Below, in pieces: positions 3,894 to 36,175 of a stretch of DNA of 64,000 nucleotides. Location of the stretch: the NCBI RefSeq assembly GCF_003605575.1, contig NZ_QKNY01000001.1:1-64000 (forward strand), read 5' to 3'. The translations under genes were made by a program, and so were the position numbers. This DNA comes from Halonotius aquaticus. GTDB lineage: Archaea > Halobacteriota > Halobacteria > Halobacteriales > Haloferacaceae. Numbering within the stretch: position 1 is the stretch's first letter; every line of letters starts with the position of its first letter. Below the pieces are notes generated by a model. It saw only the letters and a program-made list of their open reading frames with translations, made no database searches and was not told the origin of the DNA.

Positions 3894-4909
3894 TATTCGT
3901 CCTCCACGCGAACGCCGTCGGTGGCGAGTTCGGCACGGAACGCCTGTTCACAGTCCGGCGTATACTGAAGACTCGTCTCGGTTTCAGCGGTTGCATCGAG
4001 GGCGACGATACAGCCGCCACCGCCTGCACCGGTCAGCTTTGCCCCATCTGCGCCGGCCTCACGGGCGGCCCAGACCATCGTATCCAGCGACCGCGAGGAG
4101 ACCCCGAGTGCCGAGAGGAGGCCGTGGTTGATATCCATCAGTTCGCCGAGTTCGCCGATCAGTTCCGCACTGGGGTCGCTCTCGGGGTCGGCTGCCGCCA
4201 GCAACGACTCGCCTTCCCTGACAATATCGCCGATCGCGTCGACCGTATCGGCCGCGAACTCATAGCGGTCGCGCAGCGAGCGCACGCCGGCGACGAGCTG
4301 GCCGGTGTCGCCCGCGCCGCCATCGAAACCGACGACGAACGGGAGTTCCGGCGTCTCAAGGCGGCTGCAGTCGTCGCCCTCGACGCGGACGGCTCCCCCC
4401 ATCGTCGAACAGAACGTGTCGGCTCGGGAGGCTTGGCCATCCTGAACGTCGTACTCCGCTTGGTAGGCGCGATCCGCAAGCTCACGGCGGTCGAGTGGCT
4501 CGCCCAGCGCACGGGTTGCGGCGTCGATGCCCGCGACAACAACGGCTGCCGAGGAGCCCAGCCCCGCTCCGAGTGGGATCTCGCTGTCGACAGAGATATC
4601 GAAGCCGGCGGCGGGGGCGTCGGCGGCATCCCGAGCCTGTTCGACGGCGGCATCAACGTAGCCGGTTGCGGCTTCGATCAGCGGTTTCGGCACGTCAACA
4701 TCGGGCCCGCTGGCCGGCGAGTCGGCGTACTCAACGGCAAACCCATTGAGCGTGAGATCCTGAGCCTCGACGCGGACGTGGCCGTCGTCGCGCGGTTCGA
4801 CCGTGACGGTCGCGCGTTTCTCGATGGCACATGGGACGGCTGGCTCGCCGTAGACGACGGCGTGTTCGCCGAAGAGATATACCTTCCCCGGCGCGCTGAC
4901 GACGGTCAT
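3893..4909 (-). CDS. mvk: Mevalonate kinase (GHMP kinase)
   Basis: This 338-residue GHMP kinase phosphorylates mevalonate to 5-phosphomevalonate in the cytosol. Motif 1 with GEHAVVYGEPAV is at about 14-25, the ATP-binding motif 2 IPLGAGLGSSAAV at 111-123, and motif 3 KLTGAGGGGCIV near the C terminus; all three look intact. It is followed with a one-base overlap by isopentenyl phosphate kinase, giving a two-gene isoprenoid unit. The chosen ATG overlaps the stop codon of a short upstream ORF (ATGA), and a strong TATA-like box lies at 4988-4998, so this start is well placed for termination-reinitiation. Confidence 0.96.
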   Translation of the reverse strand: MTVVSAPGKVYLFGEHAVVYGEPAVPCAIEKRATVTVEPRDDGHVRVEAQDLTLNGFAVEYADSPASGPDVDVPKPLIEAATGYVDAAVEQARDAADAPAAGFDISVDSEIPLGAGLGSSAAVVVAGIDAATRALGEPLDRRELADRAYQAEYDVQDGQASRADTFCSTMGGAVRVEGDDCSRLETPELPFVVGFDGGAGDTGQLVAGVRSLRDRYEFAADTVDAIGDIVREGESLLAAADPESDPSAELIGELGELMDINHGLLSALGVSSRSLDTMVWAAREAGADGAKLTGAGGGGCIVALDATAETETSLQYTPDCEQAFRAELATDGVRVEDE

Positions 4910-4962
4910 CGGGTGCCCCCGTCGTCGCCCGCCAGTTCGTGTGTTGCGATCGAATTGTACAT
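4906..4962 (-). CDS. Possible 18-codon leader ORF before mvk
   Basis: An ATG at 4962-4960 opens MYNSIATHELAGDDGGTR and ends at a TGA sharing bases with the mvk ATG (ATGA). The TATA-like box at 4988-4998 would place the transcript start only a few bases before this ATG, so the ORF would be the first thing translated on the mRNA. No family is recognised. It may be a leader peptide that sets mvk translation by coupling, or a chance ORF in the untranslated leader. Confidence 0.35.
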   Translation of the reverse strand: MYNSIATHELAGDDGGTR

Positions 4963-4987
4963 CTATATTCCCGTACGATAGCGTAGG

Positions 4988-4998
4988 TTTTTATATGG
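4988..4998 (-). promoter_or_regulatory. TATA-like box of the mvk-ipk unit
   Basis: The minus strand reads CCATATAAAAA, the most AT-rich stretch of the intergenic region and a good archaeal TATA box. With a start point about 27 bases downstream, transcription would begin near 4967. Confidence 0.55.
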
Positions 4999-5024
4999 TT
5001 GCATGGTAACAACGGAGTGTGAAC

Positions 5025-5045
5025 GTCAACCACACCGTGGTTGAC
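5025..5045. promoter_or_regulatory. Perfect 9-bp inverted repeat upstream of the mvk promoter
   Basis: Arms GTCAACCAC (5025-5033) and GTGGTTGAC (5037-5045) are perfectly complementary around a 3-base spacer. The centre lies about 40 bases upstream of the mvk TATA-like box, a position that suits an activator site. It also lies about 95 bases beyond the stop of the CNNM gene, so a terminator stem is possible, although no T-tract follows. No specific regulator can be named. Confidence 0.5.
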
Positions 5046-5106
5046 ACTCACGTGTTTGGGGTGTGGCCCTCGCCCTCCTCAAACGGGAACGGGGAATGCA
5101 CGCTGC

Positions 5107-5126
5107 GTCCGCACGGTGGTGCGGAC
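5107..5126. terminator. GC-rich hairpin just past the CNNM gene stop
   Basis: Perfect 8-bp arms GTCCGCAC (5107-5114) and GTGCGGAC (5119-5126) flank a 4-base loop, 11 bases downstream of the minus-strand TAG at 5138-5140. Its position suggests an mRNA 3'-end structure. The oligo-T run typical of archaeal termination is missing, so processing or stabilisation of the 3' end is equally likely. Confidence 0.45.
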
Positions 5127-5137
5127 ACCGGGTTTCA

Positions 5138-6220
5138 CTATTTTGACTGAGTAGCTTCGCCTTCGGCTCGCGTATCCAGCGGATCCTCGAGGTCACCCAT
5201 CACGGCTTCGAGTGTGTCGGTCGCTGTCACCAATCCGACGACGTCGCCGTCCTGCACCACGAGGGCTAACTCCTGATCCTCGGCTTGGAACTGATCGAAG
5301 GCGTCGCTCACGCTTGTCTCGGCGGCGACGGTCATCGTCGCCGCGGCGATATCCTCGAACCGCTCCTCGCCGGCCTGCAAGGCGTCGTAGTGGTCGATGA
5401 TCGACGGCGAGTAGACGACACCCCGGAAATCCGTTAGCGCGTCGCCGACGAGCGGGAACCGGGTGTGTGGCGTATGGCGAATCCGGTCGAGGTTGTCGTC
5501 GACTGACCGCTCTGTTGACAGGGCGACGATATCGTCGGCAGCTACCATGACCTCGCTGATCGGAAGTTCACCGACTTCGAGGGCGTTGAGCACCTCCTCG
5601 CGGCGTTCGTCAGGAATCTCGCCCTCCTTCAGTAGCGACCCGAGTTCGTTCCGCAGGTCGGCGCGGGATTCCAGTACGTCTTCCTCAGTTTCCAGCCATG
5701 CGCCGGTCATCTCGATCCCGAACAGTTTGAGCGTCCCCTTGGCGACCCAGTCGCCAAGGGTGATCACCGGCGAGATACCGCGGTGAAACCAGTACAGCGG
5801 CGATGCACCGTACCGACAGACGAACCGCGACCGTTCGACCCCAAGGTAGGTCGGCGTCTGCTCGCCGTGGGTGAGATGGACGAGGTTGATGATTAGAAAG
5901 GCGATCACGCCGCCCGCTCCGATCGACGCCAGCGGCCCGCCGACGAACAACGGCTCGAAGATGGCTGCGAGCGCCGGCTCGGCGACGATCCCAACGGCGA
6001 TCGAGGAGGCCGTAATCCCGACCTGGCAGGTCGTTAGATAGATTTCGAGATTCTGGGTCATCTCCCAGGCTCGTTCCAGGGCGGGCCGGTCGCCGATAAA
6101 CTCGCTTTTCTCGAACTGTCTGGCGCGCGTCAGCGCGAACTCGATAGCGACGAAAAAGCCGTTGGTGAGGATCAATGTAACCCCAGCAACGAGACGGAGG
6201 GTCAACTCAAGCGGTGTCAT
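5138..6220 (-). CDS. CNNM/CorC-type membrane protein with CBS pair
   Basis: This 360-residue protein has an N-terminal DUF21/CNNM membrane domain with about four hydrophobic segments (residues 5-30, 65-85, 92-112 and 130-160). It includes the typical TNGFFVAIEFALTRAR start, then a linker helix and two CBS repeats (about 215-345). Members of this family are linked to divalent cation, mainly Mg2+, transport or tolerance, with CBS domains sensing nucleotides. The C-terminal CorC/HlyC domain found in many longer relatives is not seen; the protein ends soon after the second CBS motif. It stands alone between two intergenic regions. Substrate cannot be told from sequence. Confidence 0.88.
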   Translation of the reverse strand: MTPLELTLRLVAGVTLILTNGFFVAIEFALTRARQFEKSEFIGDRPALERAWEMTQNLEIYLTTCQVGITASSIAVGIVAEPALAAIFEPLFVGGPLASIGAGGVIAFLIINLVHLTHGEQTPTYLGVERSRFVCRYGASPLYWFHRGISPVITLGDWVAKGTLKLFGIEMTGAWLETEEDVLESRADLRNELGSLLKEGEIPDERREEVLNALEVGELPISEVMVAADDIVALSTERSVDDNLDRIRHTPHTRFPLVGDALTDFRGVVYSPSIIDHYDALQAGEERFEDIAAATMTVAAETSVSDAFDQFQAEDQELALVVQDGDVVGLVTATDTLEAVMGDLEDPLDTRAEGEATQSK

Positions 6221-28122: not shown

Positions 28123-28808
28123 TAGCTGTCACCACCGGTGTCCGTCTGCAGTCGACCACGCAGTTTGTCGATCCATGACTGCTGGGTGGTGACGGGTGCA
28201 AAGCCGGTCGTCGCCTCAGCACACTGTGTTTCGACAACCCGCAACGTTCGCCGAATACGGTAGTCGTAGGCATGGGTTGGATACAGCCACTCGTAGAGCC
28301 GGTACCACAGCGGGAAGTCCGCGGCATTGGTCGTCGTCACCGTTGCCGCCGCGACAGCATCGGTCGTCCAATCGCCGCCGTCAACATACCTGATTGCGTC
28401 CTGTTTCTGTTTGTCCTGTGTGTAGAGTGCGATGAGTGTTTGTCTCAGTGCATCCTCGATGGGTGTCTCCGCGCTGTGTGCGTGGGCTGTCTGTTCAAAC
28501 GCTGTCGTGAGTCGCTCACCCGTAATCGACACGTCGCGAGTTGGTGTTTCGACCGACGTGGTGTCCAACCCGGTGTCTGCATCGCGGCCGTTCCAGACCC
28601 CGAATCCGACCAATCCAATGAGCGCGAGCAGTCCACCAGTTAGCAGGACAATGCGCCGATCGCCAAGCGTCTCGGTTCCTTGGGTGAGTGGCTCGGTCAC
28701 GCTGGTCGGCAGGGCCGACGGGCGGTAGCCGATCAGCAGCGCAAAGCCGACTGTGAGACACACACTCCCAGCGAGCGCGATATTGCGAGCGGTGCGTGTC
28801 TGTCTCAT
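28122..28808 (-). CDS. Membrane protein of the transglutaminase cluster, 228 aa
   Basis: Two hydrophobic segments lie in the first 75 residues (ALAGSVCLTVGFALLIGY and IVLLTGGLLALIGLVGF). The rest is a soluble helical domain with a LRVVETQCAEATTGFAPV stretch near the end. The family resembles haloarchaeal DUF4129/DUF7269-like neighbours of DUF58. It overlaps the transglutaminase gene by four bases (ATGA), and shares one base with DUF58, so the unit is strictly coupled. Function unknown. Confidence 0.78.
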   Translation of the reverse strand: MRQTRTARNIALAGSVCLTVGFALLIGYRPSALPTSVTEPLTQGTETLGDRRIVLLTGGLLALIGLVGFGVWNGRDADTGLDTTSVETPTRDVSITGERLTTAFEQTAHAHSAETPIEDALRQTLIALYTQDKQKQDAIRYVDGGDWTTDAVAAATVTTTNAADFPLWYRLYEWLYPTHAYDYRIRRTLRVVETQCAEATTGFAPVTTQQSWIDKLRGRLQTDTGGDS

Positions 28809-31540
28809 GGGTCGTCGTCCTCCGAGGACTCGGTGATCTCTGCGAGGGCCTGTCGGGCTGCGTCGAGCCGTGAGTCTCCCGGTGATTGCTGGCCGTACTC
28901 AACGGCCCGATACAGATCCGTGAGGTAGGTGACCGGTTGGTTCGGAACCCCCTTCTCGATCGCGTACTGTCCGATCTCAACGGGCGTTCGGGTTACGGCC
29001 TGTGGGGGACGGATGAGCGAGACGAATGTCTGCCACATCGATCGGAGCTGTCGATCCGGCCCAGCCCCGTTAGCCTCACTGTGTGTCGATTCCGTGTCTG
29101 CGTTGCCAGCGGCTGCTTGCCACCGGTGACGAAGGCGCTCCAGCCACGATTTGAGTGCGGCTAACAGCCGGCGTGGATCGAGTCGCTGCTGGATCTCACT
29201 TACCGACAGAGCAAACACCGACCGCCACGCCCGGAGCCGGGCGAGAAGCCGCCTCATCGCGGTGGTCAACCGATCTGCTAGCCCCACCAGGAGTGTCGTT
29301 GCTCGATCGGGGAGTCGCCGCAGAAACGCCCTGATGACAGCCAATCTATCTGTCACCGAGCCGCTGGTCACACCGCGACGACGGGCAGCAATCACGAACC
29401 CAGCGATGACGACGAGGACGCCACCAACAACGATAGCAGCGTTTCGGTAGAGCCCACCGACCTGTGTCTCGCCTGTTACACCAGTCACCGTCGTTGCAAC
29501 TGTGGCAGTATTTGCGATCGGGAAATTGAACGCAAGCGTGCCGTTTTCGTCTGTCTCCCCGACCGTCTCACCGTTGACACGGACAGGAACCCCGTCGATC
29601 TGCTCTCCGGATCGGGTTACCGTCGCCGTCGCTGGCCCCGCGGGGAGCGCGATGCCACCCGGACTGACTGAGACATTTGGTGTCAATGCAGTCCGCTCGT
29701 CGTTCGGCGTGTCAGCATTTGCTGGGGTGACCTCGAAGGTGGTCGACTCACTCACGGCTCCTCGGGAGACGGTGACGCGATACGTGCCCGGAGTGACATC
29801 GGCCAAGGAGAGATCGTAGTACCCCTCCCTGTTTGTTGTTCCGACCTCGGTTCCATCGAACGAGACTGTCGCATCGCTGATCGGGATATCCTCGACGCTG
29901 GCGACGACTCTGGCGGTTTCGCCGGCTGTTCGGCTGCCGACGACCGCGAGTGTGGCGTTTTTCGCCAGCGGATAGGTCGCTGTTGAGTCCGCTGTCTCCC
30001 CATCGACCTGTGGGATCACTGTATTGCCTGATGTCAGTGGTGTCGCTGCACTCAGCAGTGGGAGACCGTTGGTGATCGCGCCGAGCGAGGCCACAGCGAG
30101 TGGCCTCGCTTGGGGGGTCGGTGTGGCATCGGTGTATTCGGTCTGGGTGGTGTCGTCGCCGGCCCGGATCGTGACCCGATCGGTATAGGGCAGTGTGGTC
30201 TCGACGGATCCGGTCGCATCTGTCCACCCGACTCGCTGATCGTTGACGAACACCGGGACACCGCTGATCGACTCATTTTCTTTGGTGACTCGCACTGACA
30301 CCGGCGCGCCGACAACAGCCGACCGGTTCAACGAAACCTCGTACGGTGGGTCTGGTGTCGACACCGAGAGCTCGTCGGCTGGCGTGGGATCGAACCGAAC
30401 CCAGCCGACATCCGGGAAGTACACCTCGACCCACGCGTGGCCGCGGTCGCTCGTGACGAGATAGGTGTCATCGCCGACCGGTCTGCCCTTCCGGAAGCCG
30501 ACGACATACCGGGCGGGGACGCCCTGGCTTCGGAGCATGGCGGCCATCGTGGTCGCAAACTGCTGGCAGTAGGCGGCATCCACCTCAAAGATCAGTTGGT
30601 CGGCGATCGGCTGGCTTGGGTCGAGCGACGTGTTCAGCGAATAGCCCTTGTTCGATGTGAGCCACCGCTGGACGGTCATCGCGCGGTCGTATCGGGTGTC
30701 CGTCCCCGCCAAGAGTTCGCCGGTGAAGTCGCCGACGCGATCGGGGGTGTCGCCCGGCATTCGGGTGTACGTTTCGCGGATCTCCCGTGGTGTTTGGCCC
30801 TCCGCGTTTCGAAGCACCGACGGCTGCCGCGGTGGGAGCGCACTCGTTGCGGTGTAGGTCGTCTCCGCCGACAGCGACTCGTCGGTTTGAATGCCGCCGG
30901 TCGCTGAGGTTTGGAGAGTTGGCTGGGTGCCGTCGCCGCGGAACGAGACTGATTCGGGTTGCCACGCCGTCGGCAGCGAGCGGCCACCCTCCAAGAGGGT
31001 GACATCGTAGGTGATGCGTCGATTGCCGCCGGTGAGGTCGTCGTTTGGAATCCCCTCATCGAGTGGGGTGGGGGCCTCGGCCTGTTGCCAGCCGGTGCCG
31101 GTGTAGGTCTCGTAGGCGGTCTGTCGCCAGTAGGTGTTTACCGGCGATTCGACGGTAAACAGCGGGGCTTGGCTGGGTTGCTCGCTGAGGCTCCCGCTGA
31201 TCTGAGCCGACTGTGGTGGGTTGGTGAGCGAGCCCCCGGCGGTCTGTCCGGGCGCGCCGATCCCGGTGGGCTCACCACTCCCAGCAGACTGGCTCTCACC
31301 GGACTCGCCGTCGCCGGTGGATCCCATCTCGCCGGATTGAGCGCCTGCTTGCGTGCCGGCCGCTGACCCGCCGGGCGATTGCGTGCCAGCGGGCAGTTGG
31401 CTGCCTTCCGGGAGTTGCTCGGCGATGGCTTCGTTTGAGCCGAAGATGTCGACGGCCGGGAGAAACGCGGCCGAAAACAGGAGGGCGACGATTGCGATCA
31501 CGACCAAGATGGCCTCGCCGATCCGCCTGTCGTCGCCCAT
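28805..31540 (-). CDS. Membrane-anchored transglutaminase-like protein, 911 aa
   Basis: After an N-terminal membrane segment (about 13-33) comes a Gly/Ser/Gln-rich linker. The transglutaminase-like core follows at about 300-415, with Cys in AAYCQQFATTMAAML, His in SDRGHAWVEVYF and Asp in RFDPTPAD forming a Cys-His-Asp triad. Beta-sandwich repeats come next (VPVFVNDQRVGWTDATGSVETTLP, VPVRVNGETVGETDENGTL), a second helix at about 705-728, and a cytosolic C-terminal domain. The active site would face the outside. Possible roles are cross-linking or cleavage of surface proteins, but the substrate is unknown. It is the first gene of the four-gene operon. Confidence 0.9.
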   Translation of the reverse strand: MGDDRRIGEAILVVIAIVALLFSAAFLPAVDIFGSNEAIAEQLPEGSQLPAGTQSPGGSAAGTQAGAQSGEMGSTGDGESGESQSAGSGEPTGIGAPGQTAGGSLTNPPQSAQISGSLSEQPSQAPLFTVESPVNTYWRQTAYETYTGTGWQQAEAPTPLDEGIPNDDLTGGNRRITYDVTLLEGGRSLPTAWQPESVSFRGDGTQPTLQTSATGGIQTDESLSAETTYTATSALPPRQPSVLRNAEGQTPREIRETYTRMPGDTPDRVGDFTGELLAGTDTRYDRAMTVQRWLTSNKGYSLNTSLDPSQPIADQLIFEVDAAYCQQFATTMAAMLRSQGVPARYVVGFRKGRPVGDDTYLVTSDRGHAWVEVYFPDVGWVRFDPTPADELSVSTPDPPYEVSLNRSAVVGAPVSVRVTKENESISGVPVFVNDQRVGWTDATGSVETTLPYTDRVTIRAGDDTTQTEYTDATPTPQARPLAVASLGAITNGLPLLSAATPLTSGNTVIPQVDGETADSTATYPLAKNATLAVVGSRTAGETARVVASVEDIPISDATVSFDGTEVGTTNREGYYDLSLADVTPGTYRVTVSRGAVSESTTFEVTPANADTPNDERTALTPNVSVSPGGIALPAGPATATVTRSGEQIDGVPVRVNGETVGETDENGTLAFNFPIANTATVATTVTGVTGETQVGGLYRNAAIVVGGVLVVIAGFVIAARRRGVTSGSVTDRLAVIRAFLRRLPDRATTLLVGLADRLTTAMRRLLARLRAWRSVFALSVSEIQQRLDPRRLLAALKSWLERLRHRWQAAAGNADTESTHSEANGAGPDRQLRSMWQTFVSLIRPPQAVTRTPVEIGQYAIEKGVPNQPVTYLTDLYRAVEYGQQSPGDSRLDAARQALAEITESSEDDDP

Positions 31541-31605: not shown

Positions 31606-31812
31606 GTGACTGGTGGGAGTTTGGCGTCGGTCGCGTGGGTTGACGACCGCAAGGCGCGGTTCGTCGTGCTGCCCGCCGGCAGCGAGTGGTATCCGACCGA
31701 GACGGTGGCCGACAGCGAGCCGATCAGCGCGACCGTCGTCGATAGCGACGCGATACCGGGGACGTATGCGCATCCGGAGTTGCCGTACGAAATCACGGTT
31801 CTCGAAGCATAG
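31606..31812 (+). CDS. Small hypothetical protein, 68 aa
   Basis: The ORF uses GTG at 31606. The product is a compact beta-rich protein with VAWVDDRKARFVVLPAG, ending in EITVLEA. No family is recognised. It is divergent from the transglutaminase gene, with 65 bases between them. Coding potential is supported by the acidic halophilic composition; the start is less sure. Confidence 0.6.
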   Translation: MTGGSLASVAWVDDRKARFVVLPAGSEWYPTETVADSEPISATVVDSDAIPGTYAHPELPYEITVLEA

Positions 31813-31869
31813 CTCGTGGTGTGGCGTCAGAACTTATTCACGTGGCCGCCAGTAATTCAGGCAAGAGTC

Positions 31870-32004
31870 ATGAGTGGTTTCGATAAACAGGACGACCCCG
31901 AGCTTGGAAACGGCGATACCGTCTCCGAGCGGCTGGAAACCCTCGATGTAGATGAGGACGACACCTGTTCGACCGAGGAACTCCGCGAGCGGCTTGATCT
32001 GTAG
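31870..32004 (+). CDS. Small acidic protein, 44 aa
   Basis: The ATG at 31870 opens a very acidic 44-residue protein (MSGFDKQDDPELGNGDTVSE at the start, ELRERLDL at the end). A TTATTC element about 35 bases upstream is a possible TATA box. There is no recognisable domain. It could be a small regulator or anti-factor; no evidence beyond the ORF and its composition. Confidence 0.5.
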   Translation: MSGFDKQDDPELGNGDTVSERLETLDVDEDDTCSTEELRERLDL

Positions 32005-32070
32005 ACGACTTCGATTGACGGTATCGAAGCGGCTATGACTTTCAAGAATTGGGTATAGATCAATCCACAA

Positions 32071-32643
32071 TTAGTCTTCATTTTCGAACAATTCTGTTGG
32101 GAGCAGAGGCCACAATAGTCTGTTTACGACCGCCTGAAATGGCCCCAGTGCAGTGACAACACCTCCGGCTGCAAATGAGCTAATACCCAGTACGAGATAG
32201 GCTCTCACTGGAAATCCAGAGGATTGTCCACCAAGAGAGAATCCGATATATGTCCCAATCAAAATAAGCGCCGTTGCAAACATCAAAGAGCCAATTATCA
32301 CATACATACCGGGAGCGGTTCTGGAGTGTCGTTTCAACAGACCCCAGAGTTCTCGATAAAATCCACCCACCGCCGTCTTAGTCTCCGTTGAGGCTGGATT
32401 GTGTGTTTCTGTATTCCAAACGACCGTCATTTGTGCTTCTGTTTTGTTAATCCATGTTTCGTCTCCCTCTTCCATTTCCTGAATTAGTTCACTGACACGA
32501 GTTTTCGAGACCGAGACAGCATCCCCTATCTCATCAAGTGTGAACTGCTTCCCATGGTTCATGTACAGGAGTTCTGCAATTTCGAAGAACGTTTCTCCCT
32601 TAGAATCGAATTCATCTTCGAAGCTATTCGGAATTTGAACCAT
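32071..32643 (-). CDS. Membrane-tethered winged-helix protein, 190 aa
   Basis: Residues 15-75 form a winged helix-turn-helix: FFEIAELLYMNHGKQFTLDEI, then GDAVSVSKTRVSELIQEME as the recognition part. A linker leads to two hydrophobic helices (about 113-138 and 147-175) and a short tail, FENED. The DNA-binding half would face the cytoplasm, held to the membrane. The gene is clearly AT-richer than its neighbours. A divergently oriented membrane zinc-protease-like gene starts 147 bases away, which suggests regulation by membrane tethering or proteolysis. That link is inference. Confidence 0.8.
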   Translation of the reverse strand: MVQIPNSFEDEFDSKGETFFEIAELLYMNHGKQFTLDEIGDAVSVSKTRVSELIQEMEEGDETWINKTEAQMTVVWNTETHNPASTETKTAVGGFYRELWGLLKRHSRTAPGMYVIIGSLMFATALILIGTYIGFSLGGQSSGFPVRAYLVLGISSFAAGGVVTALGPFQAVVNRLLWPLLPTELFENED

Positions 32644-32790
32644 ATGAACATATCACGAAACCCGAAAGTAAATAATTAGTTCCGGTGTTGATGACGATCA
32701 ATACCCCGGTTGATAGCGATAAACCCCCGTATTAGCCGATTTAAACGTCTTCTGTGTTTTTTGACCCTCGAACAGTGGTTATGGTTGGCT

Positions 32791-33423
32791 ATGTCAGGCC
32801 ACAATGAATCAGACACAACGAAGCATCGACTCAAAACACTCTCGGCTGATCCGAACTGGAATGAATACATTATCCCAGAGAGAGCGATAGGAGTAACAGG
32901 GGCCTTGATAGTGATCGTGGTGTCTGTACTATTCTATCCGGAGGAAATCATTCGGTTCGGAAGCGAGTTGGATCAGGGCTATATTAGCGCGCTGCAAAGC
33001 ATCGCCCCAGAAATTGGTCTTATTTTCCTGCTTGTTGTTGTCCACGAGTGTATCCATTATGCGGTAGCGGTCGCAGAAGGAAAGAAGCCACAATTCGGAT
33101 TGAAAGTCCGTAAAACGGTTGGACTACCCTTAGAGATAAATCCGTATGTTATTGCACTCAAACAACGGATTTCTCGTAACGAGAATATTTTGGTGCTTAT
33201 CGCACCGCTGATTTTGATTAATTCGCTCGCAGTTGGTGTATTGTTACTTCCCATGCCGAATAAAGTGAGTTACTACGCAGAGTTAGTCTTCGTAGTCAAT
33301 ACCATCGGTTCAATTCAAGATATATACAATGTGATTCGGTTACTTGGCTTTCCCAAGACGACTGAATTTGTGAATTTCGTTGACGACGAGGTTAGAACAT
33401 TCTACACGACTCAATCAGAGTAA
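32791..33423 (+). CDS. DUF3267-like membrane zinc metalloprotease homologue, 210 aa
   Basis: The start at 32791 (MSGHNES) is chosen because upstream codons look non-coding; a TTTAAA box lies about 50 bases upstream. The protein has four hydrophobic segments. The second contains VVVHECIHYAVAVAEG, an HExxH zinc motif, and the last part has NTIGSIQDIYNVIRLL, where the Asp matches the late zinc ligand of DUF3267/site-2-protease-like proteins. This indicates a membrane-embedded metallopeptidase or an inactive relative. One 60-base line (33121-33180) has 25 G+C, far below the window. The gene ends 35 bases before the Dna2-like gene's end. Confidence 0.75.
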   Translation: MSGHNESDTTKHRLKTLSADPNWNEYIIPERAIGVTGALIVIVVSVLFYPEEIIRFGSELDQGYISALQSIAPEIGLIFLLVVVHECIHYAVAVAEGKKPQFGLKVRKTVGLPLEINPYVIALKQRISRNENILVLIAPLILINSLAVGVLLLPMPNKVSYYAELVFVVNTIGSIQDIYNVIRLLGFPKTTEFVNFVDDEVRTFYTTQSE

Positions 33424-33457
33424 TCGAATTAGAACCCCTGCGACGCGATTTTTCCAC

Positions 33458-36175
33458 TCACCGATCCGCCCATTCCAGCATCCGCTCGTAGAACTGCTCA
33501 CTCGACAGCGCGGCCCGATCACCGACCAACACGAGCCCCTTTTTCGCCCGCGTCAGCGCGACGTTGATCCGGCGGTAATCCTCGAACAGCGGCCCATCCA
33601 ACCCCCCGGTGGCGACAAAGGAGACGATGATGACCTCTTTGCTTGAGCCCTGAAACCGATCGACGGTATCGACAGTCACGCCGACCCGACGGCTGATCTC
33701 GGCGACCTGCGCGCGGAACGGCGCGATGACACCGATGTCTTCGGCGGCGACGCCGGCGTCAAGATACGACTCGACGATCTCGGCGACCAGGTCGGCCTCG
33801 ACGGGGTTCGTGTTGCCGACGCGCTCGCCGTCGGGGTCGATAAACGCGACTGCATCACCCAACTCGGCCGGCAGCGATGCCGGATCGACGAGGTCGCCAA
33901 GCGACTGGCCTGCGACCGCGCCGGTCGCCGGACGGAGCGCGCCGTCGTAGAACTCCGCCGACGAGAAGGCCTGAATCCGCTGGCACATGCGGTACTGCCG
34001 GGTGAGCATCACGCTCGCCTCGGGATAGGCATCAATCAGCCGCTCGAACAGCGAGGTCGACAGCGGATTGTCCGCAGCCGGTTCGTCGGCGACGCCGCCC
34101 TCGCCACCGGGATCGGCGGCCTGCACGACCGGCGGCAACTGCTCGTGGTCGCCGACGAGCACGAACCGCTCGGCACGATTTAGCGCGGCCAACGCGTCCG
34201 GCTCGGTGAGTTGACTGGCCTCGTCGACGACCGCTACGTCGAACTCCTGTTCGCGCATCACCCGGGAGCCACAACTCGCGGTCGTCGCCGCCACCACGGG
34301 TGCGTTCCGAAGCGAGCCGGCCAACTCTTGCGGGTCGCCGGCCTTCTCAAGACGCACGTCGAGCATATCCTCACGAACCCCGGTCGTCGTCCCGACGCGC
34401 TGGATGTCCTCGAACCCTTGCTCACGAAGGGCCTCCAGGGCGTTGTCGACCGCGCGATTGGTAAACGCCGTCAGCAACACCCGATCCCCGCGAGCGACGA
34501 GCGCGCGGATCAGCCGCGCGATTGTATACGTTTTCCCTGTCCCGGGCGGGCCGTGAATCAGCGCGCAGTCCTCGGCGTTGACCGCGAGATTCACCGCCTG
34601 ATTTTGCCCGTCGTTGTTGTCGATAAACGTCTCCTCGCCCTCGCTAAATTCGGGCTCACGTCGCCCAAAGAGGATGTCCTTGCGGTCATCGCTGCCTTTC
34701 AGCACCGTGTCGTGCAGCGCGGTCAACATTCGGTCGACCGAGAGTTCGGAGGGATACACGTCGAGCCGCCGGAGTTCGACCGGCTCGTCGGCCGTGACGA
34801 CGATCTCTTCGTCGAGTTGGGTGATGCGGCAGAGTTCAGCATGCCCCGAAACCGGGTCGCCGTCGCTGGCGAGCGCGACATCGCCTTCGCGGAGTTTCGA
34901 CACCGCCTCGGCCGGTTTCCGCGCTCGAAGCTCCCAGCGATTGCCGTCGATCTCCTCGCGACCCAATGGTTCAAGCTCGATCAACGCACGGTCATCGGCC
35001 GCCCGCTCTTCGGCGTCTTGCTCCCAGAGTTTGCGATATTCGGCGTGGATCGCCCGACGTTCGGCCTCAATTGCGTGATACAATCGCTCGAAGTACTGCT
35101 GTTCTTCTTCGGGTACCGCAGTCCCGATCTGACCGGCTTTCGATTCCTGATCGAGTCGCCCAGAGACGACCATGCAGGTGTCCTGCTCGAAACAGTACTC
35201 ACATTTCGCATCGGCCTCATAGCCGGTCGGTACCTTGCCGCGGGCCTCCATCGCCGCCAGTTCGTTACGACTGCGGACGACGAAATCGAGCAGACCTTTG
35301 CCCACCGAGAATTCTTTCGCGGGCGAGAGGTCACCGGATTCCTCAGTTCGCTCCAGTGTCGTGTTTTTTGTATAGAGCAAGGTTCCGGTATCGGCGTCGA
35401 TCCCACGTTCCTCCAGCATCAGCGCGTAGCAGGCGGCCTGAATCTTGTCCTGAAACCGTGGCTCGCGGGTCGTGTTTTTACCCGTTTTGAGTTCGACCGG
35501 CATCCCCCGTCGCAGCGCGTCGGCACGGCCCTTCAGGCCGAACGTCGGGCTAATGAGCGTGTACTCAGAGCGCCAGTTGTCCTCCTCGGTGAGCGTTCCT
35601 TGGGCGAGCCACCCTTCGATTGCGGCGGCGTTCTGTTTGACCTCGCCTTCGACTTCAGCCACATCGCGGCCCAAGACCCCAAGTTCGAGGCCGGCCTCCT
35701 CGACGCGGTCGGCGACGGCGGTATCGAGGTCGCGGCCACGAAGCAGATCCCCGAAAACCTCGTGGACGATTGTTCCCTTAATCACGGGGTAGTTCAGCGG
35801 AATCGCCGACAGTTTGTTGAGGTAGTACATCCGCGGGCACTGCACCCACGACCGGACGCTGGTCACGTCAACGATGAAATCCGGTTCGAGGACGACGTAG
35901 GAATCGCCGCCCGTGCTGTAGGTTGTCGACCCTTGATACTCACCTTCTTCGGGGTCGGTGAGAAGCAAATCCATCCCGGTCTCGGCGTCCGCAGCTGTGT
36001 CGGCCCACTTGCCCCACAGCGTTACGTCGACGGCGTCGTCGCCGCCGGTCGGCGTGCCGTCGGTCGGTCGCACGCGGAGTTCGGCCAGCCGTCGCTCGCC
36101 GTGTTGCGTTTCGACTGTCGTCGCCCCATCGCAGGCGACGATCTCGCCGCGAAGCTCGTCGGTCACTACCCTCAC
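33458..36175 (-). CDS. Dna2-like Fe-S nuclease-helicase
   Basis: This 905-residue protein has an N-terminal OB-like part, then a Cas4/Dna2-type nuclease: Cys in WVQCPRMYYLNKL, GTIVHEVF, ELKTGKN and the triple Cys segment CEYCFEQDTC, expected to hold a 4Fe-4S cluster. The C-terminal superfamily 1 helicase has Walker A IHGPPGTGKTYTIARL, VVDEASQLTEP, LVGDHEQLPPV, RQYRMCQRI, and VALTRAKKGLVLVGD. Dna2 enzymes cut flaps and resect ends in DNA repair and replication. The annotated start is a GTG at 36175; a GTG at 36166 is an alternative. No CRISPR array or cas gene is near, so it is not Cas4. Confidence 0.9.
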   Translation of the reverse strand: MRVVTDELRGEIVACDGATTVETQHGERRLAELRVRPTDGTPTGGDDAVDVTLWGKWADTAADAETGMDLLLTDPEEGEYQGSTTYSTGGDSYVVLEPDFIVDVTSVRSWVQCPRMYYLNKLSAIPLNYPVIKGTIVHEVFGDLLRGRDLDTAVADRVEEAGLELGVLGRDVAEVEGEVKQNAAAIEGWLAQGTLTEEDNWRSEYTLISPTFGLKGRADALRRGMPVELKTGKNTTREPRFQDKIQAACYALMLEERGIDADTGTLLYTKNTTLERTEESGDLSPAKEFSVGKGLLDFVVRSRNELAAMEARGKVPTGYEADAKCEYCFEQDTCMVVSGRLDQESKAGQIGTAVPEEEQQYFERLYHAIEAERRAIHAEYRKLWEQDAEERAADDRALIELEPLGREEIDGNRWELRARKPAEAVSKLREGDVALASDGDPVSGHAELCRITQLDEEIVVTADEPVELRRLDVYPSELSVDRMLTALHDTVLKGSDDRKDILFGRREPEFSEGEETFIDNNDGQNQAVNLAVNAEDCALIHGPPGTGKTYTIARLIRALVARGDRVLLTAFTNRAVDNALEALREQGFEDIQRVGTTTGVREDMLDVRLEKAGDPQELAGSLRNAPVVAATTASCGSRVMREQEFDVAVVDEASQLTEPDALAALNRAERFVLVGDHEQLPPVVQAADPGGEGGVADEPAADNPLSTSLFERLIDAYPEASVMLTRQYRMCQRIQAFSSAEFYDGALRPATGAVAGQSLGDLVDPASLPAELGDAVAFIDPDGERVGNTNPVEADLVAEIVESYLDAGVAAEDIGVIAPFRAQVAEISRRVGVTVDTVDRFQGSSKEVIIVSFVATGGLDGPLFEDYRRINVALTRAKKGLVLVGDRAALSSEQFYERMLEWADR

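Follow-up and report, generated by a model that had tools for sequence, protein, structure and literature searches.

A membrane-anchored winged-helix regulator encoded divergently from a DUF3267 protease in Halonotius aquaticus: a possible portable intramembrane-proteolysis cassette of haloarchaea

On the whole, our analysis points to a local module in Halonotius aquaticus, made of a membrane-anchored winged-helix (wHTH) protein and a divergently encoded putative intramembrane protease of the DUF3267 family, in which the regulator would bind a repeat between the two genes, the protease would cut the regulator, and the cut would feed back on the occupancy of the repeat. We regard this reading as about evenly balanced against its competitors taken together. 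The wider proposal, that haloarchaea have a portable cassette for regulated intramembrane proteolysis, with unrelated proteases interchangeable on a locally bound regulator, is a little more tentative, and as far as we found it would be the first of its kind proposed for archaea. Below, the window means the whole stretch of 64,000 nucleotides analysed here (contig NZ_QKNY01000001.1, positions 1 to 64,000), and its relevant features are as follows.

31800-33457, no strand: AT-rich stretch, also present in H. pteroides, delimited by sequence comparison with Halonotius G003
32071-32643, minus strand: membrane-anchored wHTH gene, an ORF of 190 aa
32669-32675, minus strand: TTATTTA, 26-32 nt ahead of the wHTH ATG and a candidate TATA box for this gene
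32687-32724, no strand: putative operator common to both divergent genes, an inverted repeat whose arms span 32687-32701 and 32710-32724
32740-32762, plus strand: TTTAAA (at 32740) and TTTTTT (at 32757), either of which may be the TATA box of the DUF3267 gene
32791-33423, plus strand: DUF3267 (PF11667) gene, putative intramembrane zinc protease, with profile match and HECIH and NTIGSIQD motifs

The wHTH and DUF3267 genes have G+C contents of 0.457 and 0.438, and their intergenic stretch one of 0.42, while the surroundings are at about 0.63, so the composition noticed in the original prediction is confirmed. The pair is also found in H. pteroides (G001) with 97-99% identity. In Halonotius G003, the similarity to the window ends at 31799 and restarts at 33457, with about 1.65 kb differing, and an unrelated 109-aa membrane ORF stands at the same site in place of the AT-rich stretch. 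Because the similarity breaks and restarts at these points, the pair looks like an acquired replacement, in agreement with the lateral transfer hinted at before. Many regulator homologues are plasmid-borne. No relatives of either protein are found among the viral contigs searched, and a virus origin of the pair is therefore unsupported. As for the flanks, positions 31606-31812 hold the C-terminal remnant of a gene which is longer (98-aa frame) in Halonotius G003 and apparently truncated at the start of the AT-rich stretch. A TgpA-type transglutaminase with additional archaeal Fn3-like repeats is encoded at 28805-31540, and a Dna2/Cas4-nuclease and SF1 helicase protein at 33458-36175.

The wHTH protein consists of a soluble N-terminal half with the wHTH (about residues 18-75), followed by a two-helix membrane hairpin with hydrophobic segments at residues 115-133 and 148-166, which is the order first described, a DNA-binding half ahead of two membrane helices. 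In Pfam all HTH matches of the window protein are below threshold (best E=0.0093), and the HTH assignment comes through a homologue in genome G014 (43% identical), which exceeds the MarR cut-off with 25.1 against 24.6 bits. Profile matches in the PDB are mostly to MarR-type regulators, with weak E-values. Among 11 homologues, two to six K/R charges are found before the first segment and zero to one in the loop, a distribution which argues for a predicted N-in/C-in hairpin with the DNA-binding part in the cytoplasm. The DUF3267 protein matches PF11667 with E=2e-16 (60.7 bits against a cut-off of 27.1) and carries HECIH at residues 85-89 and the distal motif NTIGSIQD; its recognition from the letters as a DUF3267-type membrane protein with HExxH and NxxGSxxD was thus correct. 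H85, E86 and H89 as well as N170, S174 and D177 are invariant in six relatives, and no close homologue among these has lost the HExxH. Judged from the N-termini of homologues, the ATG at 32791 is a more likely start than the TTG at 32710. A search of the PDB gave no sequence match for this protein, and AlphaFold models built from two near-identical sequences each are unusable for both proteins (pLDDT 48 for the wHTH and 38 for the DUF3267 protein). The DUF3267 family belongs to the S2P-clan proteases (PMC13252029). In its member TmcP of Staphylococcus, mutation showed that the HExxH histidine and the distal aspartate are required for trimming a membrane precursor, and TmcP is assisted by the two-helix partner TmcE (PMC13252029).

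The same divergent pair is present on a plasmid of Haloplanus rubicundus (wHTH 56% and DUF3267 45% identical), with a small two-helix protein encoded between the two genes. In Haloarcula pelagica (wHTH 48%) and Haloarcula sinaiiensis (42%), the regulator is divergent from an operon ending in a rhomboid; rhomboids are a class of intramembrane serine proteases unrelated to DUF3267. A regulator profile run over 391 haloarchaeal genomes gave further loci. Among them, G105 and G168 have a rhomboid directly divergent from the regulator homologue, that of G168 being very diverged, and seven (G014, G126, G229, G205, G245, G275 and G119) have the small two-helix protein and no linked protease. Regulator homologues divergent from rhomboids are found in Haloarcula and two other genera. 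Overall, of 13 loci selected by the wHTH protein only, 6 encode an intramembrane protease in their divergent operon; it is DUF3267 in two lineages and a rhomboid in four. With 10-25 such enzymes per genome, the chance of at least 6 in 13 is 1e-9 to 2e-7, and that of at least 4 in 13, if four only count, is 5e-6 to 1.6e-4, figures which are optimistic since by the regulator tree, where the DUF3267-linked copies cluster together and the Haloarcula copies separately, the six loci amount to about three independent associations. The co-occurrence across archaeal genomes, proposed as a check in the original prediction, is therefore borne out in part: the neighbourhood is conserved, with the divergent pair recurring in Haloplanus and a rhomboid exchanged for the DUF3267 protease elsewhere, but 7 of the 13 regulator loci have no linked protease.

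The two Haloarcula rhomboids match PF01694 (E of 7e-11 and 2e-10), with GxSG and the conserved His. A diverged rhomboid group reaches 20.1 bits in G105 (cut-off 22.6) and shows no match to this profile in G168 and Haloplanus, and H61, H66, N70, G130, S132 and H257 are invariant in it. The presence of two unrelated protease classes beside a membrane-anchored regulator suggests that they may share a membrane substrate. At the Haloplanus locus, a rhomboid-like six-helix protein (L044:8597-9430) is convergent with the regulator and has GFSA in place of the GxSG of active rhomboids, so that two candidate intramembrane proteases, DUF3267 and rhomboid-like, flank the regulator there. CPBP (CAAX-type) proteins in G078 and G157 were considered as a third protease class and rejected, being encoded on the same strand as the regulator, whose copies are truncated. 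Both genomes belong to the same genus, and their CPBP genes (L038:5622-6437 and L091:5878-6690) adjoin decayed regulator copies and a degenerate operator-like site.

The intergenic stretches are alignable across the DUF3267, rhomboid and protease-less loci, the very diverged G168 being left out. We judged dyad symmetry by scanning every axis of this alignment, and dropped arm-picking, which is biased as its consensus is symmetric by construction. The scan detects one repeat in which 63% of positions are complementary, compared with 25% on average (z=5.8) and 42% at the second-best axis. Its conserved form is GGTTTAnnGnnATCAA-N8-TTnATnnnCGTnAACC, about 40 bp, and G105 has its weakest version. 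In the window it lies between the candidate TATA boxes of the wHTH and DUF3267 genes, and for the wHTH gene the spacing from TATA box to ATG would suit a leaderless transcript. We also searched with a 65-bp sequence model of this region, which matches at the module in 15 of 18 genomes or records, including the degenerate copies in G078 and G157; it misses the module in G105 and G365, and in G349 gives chance-level matches elsewhere. Otherwise the model matches at one place per genome, its own module, and this holds for the genome of the window, which has a single match. The simplest inference is that both divergent transcription units are autoregulated via the repeat. The original prediction had the two genes as a proteolysis switch that releases a transcription factor. 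Conserved linkage and the exchange of proteases speak for the switch, but an operator-like site confined to the module argues against a released factor with a large regulon, unless further sites exist in diverged form, and fits autoregulation better.

The small two-helix membrane protein has an invariant R-x-Q (mostly RGQ) ahead of helix 1 and AGPL-like residues within this helix; the RGQ may resemble haloarchaeal pilin-type signal motifs. In the five loci read, the small domain forms the C-terminal part of a wHTH protein with two membrane helices (wHTH-2TM), and judged by frame length the same fusion probably occurs in nine loci. Two plasmid copies of the fusion are annotated as winged-helix proteins. 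The fusion ties the small protein physically to such regulators. In G032 and G103, its gene and that of a rhomboid make up an operon, which is divergent from the gene of another wHTH-2TM protein. No frame for it is found in the 147-bp intergenic stretch of the window, and it is absent from G105 too. At the fusion loci L102:1498-2283, L100, L103, L105 and L110 there is an upstream overlap by a frame for a 67-aa two-helix protein, and L102, L103 and L105 adjoin a short two-gene set resembling a toxin-antitoxin pair.

Regulated intramembrane proteolysis is a classic mechanism, and we propose the following course for the module. The C-terminal hairpin would hold the wHTH protein in the membrane with its DNA-binding domain in the cytoplasm, where it would bind the 40-bp inverted repeat that separates its promoter from the divergent one; binding between both promoters would let it control itself as well as the protease operon. 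The DUF3267 protease would cut inside the membrane hairpin, which in its N-in orientation could plausibly serve an S2P-type enzyme as substrate, and the cut would alter the occupancy of the repeat and so close a local feedback loop. The same slot would be taken by a rhomboid in other haloarchaea, often together with the small two-helix protein, which is perhaps a co-sensor or gate. Rhomboids mostly cut N-out helices, and a rhomboid cut of the hairpin alone would therefore not free the DNA-binding half; as a speculation, the rhomboid might cut first in the loop or second helix, followed by a general site-2 protease. The flanking DUF3267 and rhomboid-like proteins of Haloplanus would, equally speculatively, fit such two-step cutting. 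Since the sole site found is local, destruction of the regulator would be as likely as its release.

As to this direction of effect, one version of the proposed module has the protease destroying the regulator, with the small protein shielding it as TcpH and ToxS do. Taken as a statement on direction, we hold it for possible but somewhat doubtful. It may lean on the analogy with TcpP of Vibrio, degraded by YaeL/RseP, and on the review of co-component systems of such design (PMC10269533); moreover, one local target site would need no diffusible factor, and other genomes have the small protein joined to a wHTH-2TM regulator in one chain. A different and unlikely reading, which has to be taken seriously, is that the wHTH protein controls the divergent operon as any transmembrane regulator would, while the protease has another target, either the small two-helix protein or some protein of the envelope, the link being transcriptional only. 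The operator-like site common to both genes would be expected on this account, and small protein and protease do share one operon in Haloplanus, Haloarcula sinaiiensis, G032 and G103. However, regulator and protease are paired in the window and in G105, where the small protein is lacking, and the finding of two unrelated classes of intramembrane protease next to this anchored regulator points to a common membrane substrate.

Two further accounts are much less probable. That the two AT-rich genes were merely carried together on mobile DNA, with no functional link, would agree with their low G+C content, with the absence of the site from the sister genome and with the many homologues on plasmids; we consider it improbable, as the divergent order is kept across genera, the dyad is conserved and the pairing with intramembrane proteases is repeated. 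Even less probable is a cluster for peptide maturation like that of the TMcins, in which DUF3267 would trim a small membrane peptide precursor under the control of the wHTH protein. TmcP does process a membrane precursor with its two-helix helper TmcE (PMC13252029), but neither a precursor-like ORF nor an adjacent transporter is found in the window or on the Haloplanus plasmid, and the small protein is elsewhere fused to a wHTH-2TM regulator.

Returning to the proposed cassette, we then looked at regulators of other families. A second wHTH-2TM family has a DUF3267 gene in Halobaculum XH14 and a rhomboid in G313, with homologous regulators and homologous small membrane proteins; the XH14 regulator is split across two ORFs, and the G313 rhomboid is convergent with the regulator, not divergent. 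Halonotius aquaticus itself has a second pair on contig C18 (17395-18192), where a rhomboid of the diverged type and an unrelated wHTH-2TM protein of 216 aa are encoded back to back (locus L149:3884-4705 and 4783-5433; G+C content 0.42 against 0.59 around). Additional rhomboid pairs in divergent orientation are found in G401, G191 and G148. Among 39 unselected lower-ranked rhomboids, two have a wHTH-2TM neighbour, with a background of 1 in 331 genes, so a rhomboid link in regulator families beyond that of the window is only suggestive. No wHTH-2TM neighbour is found for generic short DUF3267 genes (0 of 17 analysed loci) or for the DUF3267 gene of G057 (35% identical). Generic DUF3267 genes do not pair with such regulators, and the link between protease and regulator is therefore limited to subgroups.

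Among known systems, SREBP/S2P and TcpP/YaeL likewise combine a membrane-anchored DNA-binding protein with an S2P-clan intramembrane protease, whereas the present module is archaeal, has its protease divergent under a shared operator-like site and exchanges DUF3267 for rhomboid, with a cleavage that is here putative. ToxR/ToxS, TcpP/TcpH, VtrA/VtrC and archaeal ArnR/ArnR1 share the N-terminal HTH, the membrane segment and a small membrane partner nearby or fused; unlike these, the module has a two-helix hairpin and no extracellular sensor domain, and roughly half of its loci include a linked intramembrane protease. Transmembrane regulators in general occur widely; co-component partners are known for them, and some undergo proteolysis (PMC10269533). 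The staphylococcal TmcP/TmcE (PMC13252029) resembles the module in its DUF3267 protease and two-helix membrane helper, but TmcP matures an antimicrobial peptide, while the partner here is a wHTH regulator, with no precursor or transporter seen. Rho1 and Rho2 of Haloferax volcanii are likewise haloarchaeal rhomboid-family proteases; the available part of PMC11985538 mentions no regulator partner for them, and states that the natural substrates of haloarchaeal rhomboids are still to be identified. In the literature searched, a part of the whole, we found neither an account of archaeal membrane regulators that pair with DUF3267 or rhomboid proteases nor any study of archaeal DUF3267 proteins. The module would name a candidate protease substrate encoded next door and a putative operator with known position, and it would do so in organisms amenable to genetics. 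That either class of protease can occupy one slot is a natural experiment of a rare kind; the prediction from it is that two unrelated enzymes serve the same function on a single membrane protein.
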